Shown here piece by piece: positions 27,218 to 32,804 of a stretch of 32,804 nt of DNA. Below the pieces are notes generated by a model that was not told where the DNA came from, did not search any database, and worked only from the letters and a program-made list of their open reading frames with translations. Origin of the DNA: Thiobacillaceae bacterium (lineage in GTDB: Bacteria > Pseudomonadota > Gammaproteobacteria > Burkholderiales > Thiobacillaceae). The position numbers and the translations under genes were made by a program. Location of the stretch: assembly GCA_025054655.1 (NCBI GenBank), contig JANWZL010000105.1, forward strand, positions 1-32,804. The letters are read 5' to 3'. Within the stretch, counting starts at the first letter, position 1, and every line of letters starts with the position of its first letter.

Positions 27218-27610
<393 letters not shown>

Positions 27611-27635
27611 GAGGCTGGGGTTAGCCTTGGGGTGC

Positions 27636-27653
27636 TGTCGGTTTTTTTTACAC
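27636..27653 (+). promoter_or_regulatory. Motif copy 1, TGTCGG-T8-ACAC (candidate activator site)
   Basis: tgtcggttttttttacac; identical to copy 3. Confidence 0.6.
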
Positions 27654-27835: not shown

Positions 27836-27854
27836 TGTCGGTTTTTTTTTACAC
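27836..27854 (+). promoter_or_regulatory. Motif copy 2, TGTCGG-T9-ACAC (candidate UAS)
   Basis: tgtcggtttttttttacac, 109 bp upstream of the sigma54 promoter at 27963. Confidence 0.65.
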
Positions 27855-27918: not shown

Positions 27919-27931
27919 TAACATATTGATA
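27919..27931 (-). promoter_or_regulatory. Candidate IHF site
   Basis: Reverse complement TATCAATATGTTA matches WATCAANNNNTTR at every defined position. Confidence 0.55.
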
Positions 27932-27962: not shown

Positions 27963-27978
27963 TGGCACACGACGTGCT
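27963..27978 (+). promoter_or_regulatory. Sigma54 promoter of the PEP-CTERM gene
   Basis: TGGCAC-ACGAC-GTGCT; -24 GG / -12 GC spacing correct. Confidence 0.8.
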
Positions 27979-28013
27979 TTGCCCATGGCAAGCGACCGGG
28001 CTATACCGGTCAT

Positions 28014-28058: not shown

Positions 28059-28862
28059 ATGAAAAAGAGCCTGTTAGCAGGAGCCATAGCGGCCACGCTG
28101 GGTGCAGGCAGCGCCCATGCCTTCCTGTTCAGCCTGGAGGGAGATCTCAACGGTATGGGTATGGTCGTGACCGGTCTGCCGCCCTTGCCGGCGCCAGGCT
28201 TTACCGTGGCCTTCGACCTCTCCACGGCCTATGGCAACAGCACCATTTGGAACACTGGCCTGGCCGGGCTTACGCCCGGTAGTTCCGTCTGGTCACCCAA
28301 GCTGATTGTGGATGGTCAGATCGTAATCCACAACCCTAGCCTTCCTGCCACCATCAACCGCACCTACGATTACCGCAAGGCCTTCCAAGGTTCGGTGACC
28401 ACCACCCTCAACAGCCTGATCGGGTTGGCTGCACTGCCTTCCGTGCTGGATACTAGCACCCCTAGCTTCAGCGGCAGCATGACCGTGAACTATAGCGGGG
28501 TGTTCGATGACTTCCCCCTGCTGGGTATCTCCGTGCCGACATTTGGTTCCGGTACGCTCAACATCAACTTCAGCTTCGTCAACGCCACTGACGTGCTCAC
28601 CCTGGCCATCACCGAGAGCTTCAGCGGTGCGGGCTGGAATGGTTTCGAGGCGATGTTGGACAATCTGGACAACACCATCGGCACCAATTCCGGCACTCTA
28701 GGCGCCTTCATCTGGGGTGGCAAAACGGTCACCCCGACGGGTAACCCAGCCAATCCCTTCAACAGCACAGGCAATCTGAGGCTGATTCCTGAACCCGCCA
28801 CCTTGGGTCTGCTCGGGCTGGGCCTGTTGGGCCTGGCCACTGCCCGCCGCCGGACGGTCTGA
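28059..28862 (+). CDS. PEP-CTERM sorting domain protein (exosortase substrate)
   Basis: Signal peptide MKKSLLAGAIAATLGAGSAHA; C-terminus LIPEPATLGLLGLGLLGLATARRRTV. Confidence 0.93.
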   Translation: MKKSLLAGAIAATLGAGSAHAFLFSLEGDLNGMGMVVTGLPPLPAPGFTVAFDLSTAYGNSTIWNTGLAGLTPGSSVWSPKLIVDGQIVIHNPSLPATINRTYDYRKAFQGSVTTTLNSLIGLAALPSVLDTSTPSFSGSMTVNYSGVFDDFPLLGISVPTFGSGTLNINFSFVNATDVLTLAITESFSGAGWNGFEAMLDNLDNTIGTNSGTLGAFIWGGKTVTPTGNPANPFNSTGNLRLIPEPATLGLLGLGLLGLATARRRTV

Positions 28863-28879
28863 CACCACACAAACCACGA

Positions 28880-28913
28880 ACCCGGTCGGTCCGTGCGACG
28901 ACCGGGTTTTTTT
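28880..28913 (+). terminator. Rho-independent terminator after the PEP-CTERM gene
   Basis: ACCCGGTCG (28880-28888) / CGACCGGGT (28899-28907) followed by a T-run. Confidence 0.9.
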
Positions 28914-29326
28914 ATGTGGGCTGCCGGCCACGGTCAGGGCTGCATAAATGCCCTAACGGCGTGCTGGAGCGGCGAAAACCGCGACCCCATACCCCACCCG
29001 TGAGTCCAGCCAACCTGCGGGACCGGGGATGATGGACCACAGGGTCGAGCCATGACTCTCCACGACCTCCGGACCTGCAGCGGGCCACCCCGCTCTCCCG
29101 CCCAAGTTCGTAGCACCTGAGAATGTCCGAGATAGACGTATGGTACGTTTCAACCATATTGCTGCGAGGAACTTTCCCGTAATCGATCCCATCTGGTAGG
29201 GGCCGCGATCGTATCCGGCCCCGCAGATTCGGCACCGCCTTTCATCCAACACGGCCTTCGACGCTCGTACAGGATCGAGCTCGTCGCATTAAAATGACTC
29301 CATCTCCGCCAGACATATCGGTGTGC

Positions 29327-30502
29327 ATGAACACGCTTATGATTGGTCGTTTCGGACGCCTGCTGTGCGCCGGCCTTCTATCTGTGGCTCTGGCGCAGAT
29401 CACCGGCTGTGCCGTCATCCCGGGTACCCACACCTACGACATGCGTCAGCAGTCCGCCGTCAAACTGCCGGTCAAACAGGCCGAGGAGGTAGTTCCCGCC
29501 AATGTGAAACTGAGGCCCATCGACGCTCAGCTCATCATCGAGCAGGAGCGGGCCGCTCAGACCGCGGCGACCGAGCTGCGCCGCATGGCCGAGAAGTCGA
29601 GTCAATCCACCATCCCTGTGCCCGAATACAAGATCGGTCCAGGAGACATCCTGTCCATTACGGTATGGGAACATCCCGAGCTGACCATACCAGCAGGCCA
29701 GTTCCGGCGCGCTGAGGAGGCCGGACACGTGGTGGCGGAGGACGGCACCATTTTTTTCCCCTACGCTGGGGTGCTCAGGGTGGAGGGGCTCACCACCCGT
29801 GAGGTGCGCGCCATACTGGCGCAGCGCCTGACCAAGACGATCAAGAACCCGCAAGTGGACGTGCGTGTGATCTCCTTCCGCAGCAAGCGGGTGTACGTGG
29901 TGGGCGAGGTGACCAAACCCGGGCTGCAGGAGATCAACGACGTGCCGACCAGCATCCTAGACGCTATCAACCGCGCCGGCGGTCTCACGAAAGACGCCGA
30001 CGCAAGCCAGGTACTGCTCACCCGCGACGGCAAGACCTGGCGCGTGGATCTGCAGGCCTTGTACGAAGAAGGTGCGGTCAACCAGAACGTCATGCTCAAA
30101 CCCAATGACATCGTCTACGTGCCCGACCGTGCGCTTAACAAGGTCTTCGTCCTGGGCGAGGTGCAGAAACCCGGTGCCTATTTCATGAACAAGCGGCGTA
30201 TGACGCTCGCCGAGGCACTGGCCGAGGCCGGTTACATCAACCAGGATAAGGCCAACCCGCACTGGATCTTCGTCATGCGCGGCCAGGGCGACGTACCCGA
30301 GCTCTACCACCTGGATGCCAAGTCGCCCGATGCCCTGCTGCTGGCCGACCGCTTCACTCTGCGTCCACGCGATATCCTCTACGTCGATGCGGCTGAAGTG
30401 GCGCGCTGGAACCGAGTGATCACCAACGTGCTGCCCACGGTCAACCTGCTCAACACCCTGAGCGGCGTGAAATATCCGCTCTTTGGGGGCACCCAGCCCT
30501 GA
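29327..30502 (+). CDS. Wza-type polysaccharide export lipoprotein (ORF opens at 29294; 29327 preferred for the signal peptide)
   Basis: MNTLMIGRFGRLLCAGLLSVALAQITGC lipobox; EYKIGPGDILSITVWEHPELTIPAGQFR; SLBB-like repeats RVYVVGEVTKPG, KVFVLGEVQKPGAYFM. Confidence 0.93.
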   Translation: MNTLMIGRFGRLLCAGLLSVALAQITGCAVIPGTHTYDMRQQSAVKLPVKQAEEVVPANVKLRPIDAQLIIEQERAAQTAATELRRMAEKSSQSTIPVPEYKIGPGDILSITVWEHPELTIPAGQFRRAEEAGHVVAEDGTIFFPYAGVLRVEGLTTREVRAILAQRLTKTIKNPQVDVRVISFRSKRVYVVGEVTKPGLQEINDVPTSILDAINRAGGLTKDADASQVLLTRDGKTWRVDLQALYEEGAVNQNVMLKPNDIVYVPDRALNKVFVLGEVQKPGAYFMNKRRMTLAEALAEAGYINQDKANPHWIFVMRGQGDVPELYHLDAKSPDALLLADRFTLRPRDILYVDAAEVARWNRVITNVLPTVNLLNTLSGVKYPLFGGTQP

Positions 30503-30846: not shown

Positions 30847-30864
30847 TGTCGGTTTTTTTTACAC
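30847..30864 (+). promoter_or_regulatory. Motif copy 3, TGTCGG-T8-ACAC (candidate UAS)
   Basis: tgtcggttttttttacac, 95-96 bp upstream of the sigma54 promoter at 30960. Confidence 0.65.
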
Positions 30865-30916
30865 TCGGAGCTTCCCTATCCTGTCCGACGCTCGCCGATG
30901 ATGTGATCCCCCGCTA

Positions 30917-30929
30917 TAACCTATTGACC
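30917..30929 (-). promoter_or_regulatory. Weak candidate IHF site
   Basis: TAACCTATTGACC matches 7 of 9 defined positions of YAANNNNTTGATW; same offset from the sigma54 site as the 27919 site. Confidence 0.35.
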
Positions 30930-30959
30930 GACAAAGATAGGGCAAGAGGCGTTTGTGCA

Positions 30960-30975
30960 TGGCACAAAACGTGCT
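30960..30975 (+). promoter_or_regulatory. Sigma54 promoter of the glycosyl-phosphotransferase gene
   Basis: TGGCAC-AAAAC-GTGCT; same -24/-12 words as the 27963 promoter. Confidence 0.8.
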
Positions 30976-31038
30976 TAACGACAGACGGCTGTGAGCCTGA
31001 TCACAGGGTCCTATTGTTCAAGACCAGATGGAGGTTAC

Positions 31039-32529
31039 ATGTGGTTTCACGTGGGACTGTTCGGCTTGTCCATACTCGCGGCAGGTCTGGCCTTGCGCTA
31101 TGGCATCGCCCTGAGCAGCCGCTACGGGCTGGTGGATCGTCCCTCGGGGCATAAGGCGCACACTCACAACACACCCTTCATCGGTGGGGTCGGTGTCTTG
31201 GTCGCCCTCGCCTGTACGTTGCCCATAATTGGGATAGAGGGATATGGGTCGGCCACCCAGCTCGTAACGCTAGGGGTGTGTGCGCTGGTCCTGTTCCTGA
31301 CAGGGTTCGCCGACGACCTGAGGCAGTTGGGTTTCAAACCCCGCTTGCTGATCCAATCCGGAGTGGTCTTACTCATGGCCTGGGTAGGGGGGGTCCACTT
31401 GCAGGACCTCGGCGCATTGCTTGGCCCGGATGAACTCAAACTGGGCTGGCTAGCGATCCCGTTCACCGTCTTCGCCGCGGTCGGCGTGATCAACGCCCTC
31501 AACATGATCGACGGCATTGATGGCCTGTCTGGCACGCTGTCCGCTATCACCCTGGCGTTCATCGCCCTCGTCGCACATACCGCGGGCGACCATATGATCC
31601 TTGGGCTTGCCGTGGCGCTGCTGGGAGGAGTGACAGCCTTCCTGTATTTTAACCTGCGCCATTCGGGCCGGCGACGCGCCCGCACCTTCCTGGGTGACAA
31701 TGGCAGCATGCTGCTTGGGCTGCTGCTAGCCTGGTTGCTCATCGACCTGACGCAGGGTGAGCAACGGGCCATCGCCCCCATCGTGGCGGTCTGGCTCTTC
31801 GCAGTGCCTCTCATGGACACGGTGGGCATCATGGTCCGCCGGGTCTGGCTGGGTAAGTCGCCTTTCAGTCCCGACCGTTATCATATCCATCACCTGTTCC
31901 TGCAAGCAGGGTTTCGGGTCGAGGAAACCGTCTATGCCATCGCCGCCATTCATCTCCTGTTTGGATTGATCGGGCTGTTGCTATACCACTACAACGTCCC
32001 GCAATCGTTCATGCTCACCCTCTTCCTCACCTTGTTTATGGGCTATGTATATTTTGTAGTGCGGCCGTGGCGGCTGGTGCCCAAGTTGCGCCGCTTGCAC
32101 GGTTGGTTGAGGCTACCCTCGCGTTATGCCAGCGGGGTGTTCATCGGATATTTTGCTGCGCACGAAGCTGAAGGGGTGCTTGCACCGGTGATCAAACAGC
32201 TGGAGGGCAAAGTGCCTTTCATAGTCCATGTATTTCACTGTAAGGGCTGCAAGGCAGAGACCAGTACCTATGCCCTGATCCAGTTCGAGGAACCGGATCT
32301 TGAGCTGAAGGCTGCTCAGGCACACATCTGGCAGCGCCGCATCCGCACCTTGCTGGCCCAATCAGGGCAACTCCAGGTTCGTCAGTATATCGAACGGCAG
32401 ACTAATGCCCTGACTGGCTCGGCCATCTCGCTGCTCGGTCGCCGTTGGCAAGACCGTCGTGCAGTTAAGGTCCATCACCTACTGTGGTCACATCCCAACG
32501 GCTATGGCGCTAGGGCGCTGGCCGCCTGA
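31039..32529 (+). CDS. WecA/MraY-family undecaprenyl-phosphate sugar-1-phosphate transferase with a C-terminal extension
   Basis: ATG 31039 preceded by GGAGG; NALNMIDGIDGLSG, FLGDNGSMLLGLLLAWLLIDLT, FSPDRYHIHHLFLQAGF; multiple TM segments. Confidence 0.92.
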   Translation: MWFHVGLFGLSILAAGLALRYGIALSSRYGLVDRPSGHKAHTHNTPFIGGVGVLVALACTLPIIGIEGYGSATQLVTLGVCALVLFLTGFADDLRQLGFKPRLLIQSGVVLLMAWVGGVHLQDLGALLGPDELKLGWLAIPFTVFAAVGVINALNMIDGIDGLSGTLSAITLAFIALVAHTAGDHMILGLAVALLGGVTAFLYFNLRHSGRRRARTFLGDNGSMLLGLLLAWLLIDLTQGEQRAIAPIVAVWLFAVPLMDTVGIMVRRVWLGKSPFSPDRYHIHHLFLQAGFRVEETVYAIAAIHLLFGLIGLLLYHYNVPQSFMLTLFLTLFMGYVYFVVRPWRLVPKLRRLHGWLRLPSRYASGVFIGYFAAHEAEGVLAPVIKQLEGKVPFIVHVFHCKGCKAETSTYALIQFEEPDLELKAAQAHIWQRRIRTLLAQSGQLQVRQYIERQTNALTGSAISLLGRRWQDRRAVKVHHLLWSHPNGYGARALAA

Positions 32530-32544
32530 GTCGACCTGCTCAAA

Positions 32545-32804
32545 GTGTTCCACCGCATCCTCGTCGTCTGCACCGGCAATGTCTGCCGTAGCCCCGCGAG
32601 CGAGGCCCTGCTACGCCAGCGTCTGCTGCGTGCAGGGTCTCAGGTCGAGGTGCAGTCGGCCGGGGTCGCGGCCCTGGTGGGCGAATCGGCCGACCCTCTG
32701 ATACGGTCGCGTCTGCTCGCCCTCGGTCTCGACATCGAGACGCACCGTGCACGCCAGCTTGAGCCTGAGCATGCCCGCTGGTCCGATCTCATCCTGGTCA
32801 TGGA
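32545..32804 (+). CDS. Low-molecular-weight protein tyrosine phosphatase (Wzb-like), truncated by window edge, GTG start
   Basis: FHRILVVCTGNVCRSPASEALLRQRL (CX5RS active site) ... VQSAGVAALVGESADPLI. Confidence 0.9.
   Translation, partial: MFHRILVVCTGNVCRSPASEALLRQRLLRAGSQVEVQSAGVAALVGESADPLIRSRLLALGLDIETHRARQLEPEHARWSDLILVM

Follow-up and report, generated by a model that had tools for sequence, protein, structure and literature searches.

A Predicted PEP-CTERM-Box Promoter Before a WecA-Like Sugar-Phosphate Transferase Gene in a Thiobacillaceae Bacterium

Introduction

What controls the transcription of a sugar-phosphate transferase gene that lies close to the gene of a surface protein? 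The question is raised by a stretch of 32,804 nucleotides from a Thiobacillaceae bacterium (GenBank assembly GCA_025054655.1, contig JANWZL010000105.1; the whole stretch is called the window here), in which the transferase gene starting at position 31039 and the PEP-CTERM protein gene starting at 28059 are preceded by similar regions. The original prediction held that an upstream element, a site resembling that of integration host factor (IHF) and a sigma-54 site recur there at near-identical offsets, and that a single activator couples the surface protein to the initiation of polysaccharide synthesis. The shared architecture was correctly seen, while its identity as the known PEP-CTERM box was not recognised. 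By its sequence, the region 30847–30976 is a PEP-CTERM-box promoter, a type known since 2006, and there is good reason to expect that the activator PrsR, IHF and sigma-54 would drive 31039 together with 28059.

Promoter Elements and Their Identity

It has been reported that proteobacterial PEP-CTERM genes are preceded by a 17-nt motif ending in TTTACA, sometimes repeated and followed by a sigma-54 motif, and PrsR was predicted as the activator from a phylogenetic profile (Haft et al. 2006, PMC1569441). Upstream of 31039, the element TGTCGGTTTTTTTTACA (30847–30863, forward strand) is 17 nt long, ends in TTTACA and matches the published description of motif 1, and its TGT-N11-ACA form is a predicted site for a PrsR dimer; the site TGGCACAAAACGTGCTT (30960–30976, forward strand), with GG at -24 and GC at -12, corresponds to motif 2. 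The IHF-like site TAACCTATTGACC lies on the reverse strand at 30917–30929, and a GGAGG ribosome-binding site (31030–31034, forward strand) stands before the ATG at 31039. Before the PEP-CTERM gene, the element occurs twice on the forward strand, as a distal copy identical to TGTCGGTTTTTTTTACA (27636–27652) and as a proximal copy with nine T, one more than the other (27836–27853), followed by the IHF consensus TAACATATTGATA (27919–27931, reverse strand) and the sigma-54 site TGGCACACGACGTGCTT (27963–27979, forward strand). The starts of the two copies are exactly 200 bp apart, and within the window region 27272–27652 a P-II nitrogen regulator gene ends 25 nt before the distal one.

The predicted correspondence between the two promoters was confirmed: TGGCACAAAACGTGCTT and TGGCACACGACGTGCTT differ at exactly two positions, both in the spacer; the IHF-like sites start 43 nt (31039) and 44 nt (28059) upstream of the sigma-54 sites; the distance from the end of the upstream element, in the case of 28059 the proximal copy, to these sites is 96 and 109 nt; and wza, which lies between the two genes, has no copy, neither an upstream element nor a sigma-54-like site being found in a scan of 28860–29330. 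Compared with the box of Haft et al., the TGTCG...TTTACA element of 17 nt, its occasional repetition, the sigma-54 site that follows and the presence of PrsK, PrsR and PrsT in the genome are the same, and the distance from the sigma-54 site to the start codon is similar, about 70 nt there and 62 nt at 31039. However, the spacers, at 96 and 109 nt, are longer than those published (range 32–92 nt, mean 62.8, given as descriptive statistics), and neither periodic spacing nor IHF sites are described in PMC1569441.

The run of eight to nine T in the element could also be the T-tract of a terminator, as a terminator-like stem coincides in part with the copy at 27836. Nevertheless, such a stem is present at only one of the three copies in the window, and across 98 promoters positions 7–11 vary freely (T in 24–59%) while the spacing to the sigma-54 site is kept; the terminator reading was rejected on this conservation and is very improbable.

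Regulators and Related Systems

The cognate regulators are encoded on another contig (C97), where EpsB2 (TIGR03013, 527 bits), PrsK (TIGR02916, 812 bits), PrsR (TIGR02915, 743 bits against a cut-off of 502.6) and PrsT (617 bits) follow one another, all above their cut-offs; RpoN is encoded on C112, an exosortase on C154 and IHF-alpha on C51. Two experimental systems can be compared. The pepA promoter of Aquincola tertiaricarbonis, RpoN1-dependent and with a mapped start at TGGCAC/CTGCTT, has the same kind of sigma-54 site and a predicted enhancer upstream, but it drives only a PEP-CTERM gene, and the exopolysaccharide genes were reported to be RpoN1-independent (PMC9850573). In Desulfovibrio vulgaris, the PrsR-type regulator DVUA0057, whose gene likewise lies in an exopolysaccharide operon, enriched in vitro, by DNA affinity purification on arrays (DAP-chip), the five PEP-CTERM targets predicted for it, but there is no validated binding motif, and the main text names no WecA-like target (PMC3333781).

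Spacer Periodicity and IHF Register

To collect element–sigma-54 pairs with spacers of 40–101 nt, 250 genomes of the order were searched twice by pattern and 60 relatives once. The 194 pairs obtained, against very few matches of the reversed control, have spacers that cluster narrowly at about 42, 52, 63, 73.5, 85.5 and 96.5 nt, with almost none between (Rayleigh R 0.75 at the best period of 11.3; maximum of 500 uniform null sets, 0.27). Related genomes in this set are not independent, although the spacer windows recur across many families; four matches at 87 nt from one search have a coding-type sequence in common and are probably false, and matches of that length retained for the test only weaken it. 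The 96-nt spacer of 31039 falls in the last window, and the 109-nt spacer of 28059 lies about one turn further. Since 28 of the 194 pairs have spacers of 94–100 nt on the same grid, the published range looks too narrow. Activator and polymerase likely have to occupy compatible faces of the helix.

The IHF consensus WATCAANNNNTTR is also over-represented in the spacers: perfect matches on either strand occur in 16 of 95 distinct spacers (0.9 in shuffles, maximum 3), and matches with at most one mismatch in 53 (13 in shuffles, maximum 21). Sites in reverse orientation are most frequent at -32 and, one turn on, between -42 and -44 relative to the sigma-54 site, and this register tracks the spacer, with -32 dominant at 58–68 nt and -43/-44 at 91–112 nt. 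Both IHF sites of the window fit the long-spacer class, the one at 27919 agreeing with the consensus at 9/9 positions and the one at 30917 at 7/9. The latter is therefore credible by its position, -43 being in the register of that class, and not by its score.

Promoters of the NtrC class with IHF-assisted looping have the order of activator element, IHF bend and -24/-12 site and depend on the face of the helix. The order and the probable face dependence are the same here, whereas the element sequence and the family of the activator are peculiar to the PEP-CTERM system. Phosphorylated PrsR would bind TGTCG-N6-TTTACA as a dimer, IHF would bend the spacer, and the AAA+ domain of PrsR would contact RNA polymerase–sigma54 at 30960, so that the wecA-like gene, probably with the phosphatase gene downstream, would be transcribed together with 28059; its product may then start a lipid-linked glycan that becomes part of the surface layer to which the PEP-CTERM protein belongs.

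Distribution in the Genome

A scan of the 2.2-Mb genome, in which the window is contig C98, with up to three mismatches allowed, gave five occurrences of the element and none of the reversed-pattern control. All five occurrences lie upstream of sigma-54 sites, three of them inside the window, and the genes behind them are 31039, two PEP-CTERM genes and a gene for a secreted protein that adjoins the gene of an HprK-related kinase. One element outside the window (C72:939–955) stands 98 nt, again in the last spacer window, before TGGCACGCGACGTGCTT and a PEP-CTERM gene; the other (C30:946–962) is separated by 53 nt from TGGCGCGATACTTGCTT, behind which lies a gene whose protein has a twin-arginine-like start. 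The sigma-54 pattern by itself is not enriched genome-wide (26 matches against 48 for reversed controls), so it is the conjunction of element and sigma-54 site that carries the evidence: at about 26 matches per 4.4 Mb of strand, the chance of a sigma-54 match 40–115 nt downstream is about 4e-4 per element, and all four promoter-proximal elements have one. That the two intergenic regions are alike by chance could be argued from sigma-54-like sites being no commoner than in reversed controls, but the five-to-zero count, the co-occurrence, the periodicity and the recurrence in other genomes already contradict it, and its probability is negligible.

The gene at C30 (L040:138–842, reverse strand) is not a PEP-CTERM gene and has no NCBIfam match; its promoter contains the perfect IHF site AATCAATCGGTTA in the 53-nt spacer, and its neighbours are the gene of HprK-related kinase A (TIGR04352, 399 bits) and another that likewise has no NCBIfam match. 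It is a putative third class of PrsR target. A third PEP-CTERM gene (L043, contig C4:26655) has the sigma-54-like site TGGCACAGGCTTTGCTC, with no recognisable element in the upstream sequence read, and is possibly under another activator.

Recurrence Before Orthologous Transferase Genes

As the same-genus genomes G001–G003 gave no wecA-like match, footprinting was done with other genera. The element was sought within about 700 nt upstream of 62 orthologues of 31039 that have its C-terminal extension, and 21 ordinary WecA loci (Pseudoalteromonas/Rheinheimera/Methylococcales) served as negative controls. It precedes 11 of the 62 orthologues and none of the controls. The eleven loci are the window, the same-family genomes G031/L086, G024, G006, a metagenome-assembled genome (MAG) of the Gallionellaceae, a Tepidiphilus MAG, four Zoogloea including Z. 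ramigera NBRC 15342, and one Nitrosomonas. The spacer between element and sigma-54 site in Z. ramigera NBRC 15342 (L120) is 60 nt long. The start of the element lies immediately behind a PEP-CTERM stop codon in both G024 and G006. A further 23 orthologues, mostly from Accumulibacter, have a PEP-CTERM gene directly upstream, and in 19 of these the element stands about 1.1–1.5 kb before the transferase gene; these are neighbours only, for which a common transcript is putative, and in L127 a hairpin lies between the two genes. In the transferase tree, a link to the element or to a PEP-CTERM gene exists for 32 of the 33 members of one clade (Shimodaira–Hasegawa-like approximate likelihood ratio support, SH-aLRT, 90) and is lacking for 27 of the 28 members of a Thauera/Nitrosomonas clade; the window transferase, on a long branch, is poorly placed.

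The end of the PEP-CTERM gene and the element are tandemly duplicated directly before the wecA-like gene of G024 (L048, 3310–3560). A betaproteobacterial long WecA-like gene is carried by sequences labelled Brevundimonas (L092) and Competibacteraceae (L098); the former groups within Accumulibacter sequences and is probably from a mis-binned or mislabelled MAG.

Several observations weigh against PrsR control of 31039. The IHF-like site at 30917 is weak, the Tepidiphilus locus (L087) has the element with no convincing sigma-54 site, and most Nitrosomonas and Thauera orthologues are without the element. No terminator was found between 30502, the end of wza, and 30847, so read-through from wza is possible. 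The transferase gene might accordingly be transcribed mainly from wza, with the element and its sigma-54 site a relic or a mere booster, an arrangement that would resemble the element-free Nitrosomonas and Thauera orthologues, which lie downstream of wza in the same locus. In the window, however, both the element and the sigma-54 site are intact, as is their spacing, which falls on the periodic grid, and several genera have the same arrangement behind a PEP-CTERM gene and not behind wza, which makes transcription mainly by read-through improbable. From the spacer grid, the IHF register and the recurrence before orthologues, control of 31039 by PrsR and sigma-54 is likely.

The Transferase and Polysaccharide Synthesis

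The product of 31039 (31039–32529, forward strand) is a WecA-like polyprenyl-phosphate sugar-1-phosphate transferase of 496 aa whose C-terminal extension begins near residue 341. Its Glycos_transf_4 domain (PF00953, E 2.7e-37) contains the motifs NMIDGIDG, GDNGS and HHLF, invariant among orthologues; against TIGR02380 (WecA) it scores 271 bits, below the cut-off of 326, so it is called WecA-like only, with no substrate assigned. It is probably the starter of a cell-surface sugar chain. The C-terminal 155 or so residues (window 32062–32526) form a conserved domain with no Pfam match, for which AlphaFold2 predicts a ferredoxin-like beta-alpha-beta-beta-alpha-beta sandwich (predicted local distance difference test, pLDDT, 80) with conserved Arg residues. 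No significant match to this predicted fold was found in the PDB, and a weak PHD-finger match was dismissed as noise.

Of the original claim of co-regulation, one activator for both promoters is very probable, given the known box, the encoded PrsR, the spacer and IHF register and the recurrence. The step from a PrsR-controlled transferase gene to PrsR-controlled initiation of polysaccharide synthesis is less certain, EpsB2 being encoded as well. In Zoogloea resiniphila prsK/prsR mutants (PMC9012009) and in Aquincola tertiaricarbonis rpoN1 mutants (PMC9850573), the exopolysaccharide is still made and is released in soluble form, and with such a phenotype in related floc formers it is less sure that PrsR switches on bulk polysaccharide through 31039. 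A serious alternative, though one given somewhat less than even chances, is that the promoter works but that 31039 makes a minor glycan, for protein glycosylation or as an anchor, PrsR controlling anchoring and not synthesis. The mutant phenotypes agree with this, as does EpsB2, a second initiating transferase whose gene adjoins prsK–prsR. On the other hand, 31039 is set among wza and a Wzb-like phosphatase gene, as is typical of a capsule or exopolysaccharide locus, and overexpression of PepA alone restored flocs in the prsK/prsR mutants, so that no PrsR-driven glycan was needed there (PMC9012009). The exopolysaccharide of the mutants may mean that the WecA-like enzyme makes a separate glycan, that EpsB2 is enough for the bulk polymer, or that regulation is species-specific.

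Other Genes of the Locus

The genes described here lie on the forward strand. The PEP-CTERM surface protein (28059–28862, 267 aa) matches PF07589 (28 bits) and TIGR02595 (23.9 bits), both above cut-off, and an intrinsic terminator (28886–28912) separates its gene from wza. The latter (29327–30502) encodes a Wza-type polysaccharide export protein (NF011658, 367 bits; Wza_C and SLBB domains). The Wzb-like low-molecular-weight tyrosine phosphatase gene (32545–32804, PF01451), cut by the contig end at 32804, is likely in the same operon as 31039.

Significance

The promoter type is known. New are the helical phasing, the way the IHF sites keep register, and the repeated occurrence of the promoter in front of a glycan initiator; none of these was found in the open-access papers searched, though other papers may have them. 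The approximately 11-bp periodicity and the spacer-linked IHF register form a sequence signature of face-of-helix contact and IHF-assisted looping with which more PrsR targets may be found. A regulon predicted 20 years ago would thereby be extended from surface proteins to the initiator of a sugar chain, and the presence of the promoter before such a gene in several genera points to joint expression of surface protein and sugar chain. More tentatively, and at present rather doubtfully, the PrsK–PrsR/sigma-54 regulon of floc- and biofilm-forming Betaproteobacteria may include, as a conserved member, a lipid-linked glycan initiator of the long WecA-like type; its product would decorate the PEP-CTERM proteins and the bulk polysaccharide at the cell surface or anchor them there. 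If this is true, a dedicated glycan initiator together with PEP-CTERM proteins would help to explain why prsK/prsR mutants produce exopolysaccharide yet lose it to the medium. The co-ordination of protein and polysaccharide in the flocs and granules of Zoogloea and Accumulibacter, the basis of activated-sludge treatment, becomes testable.
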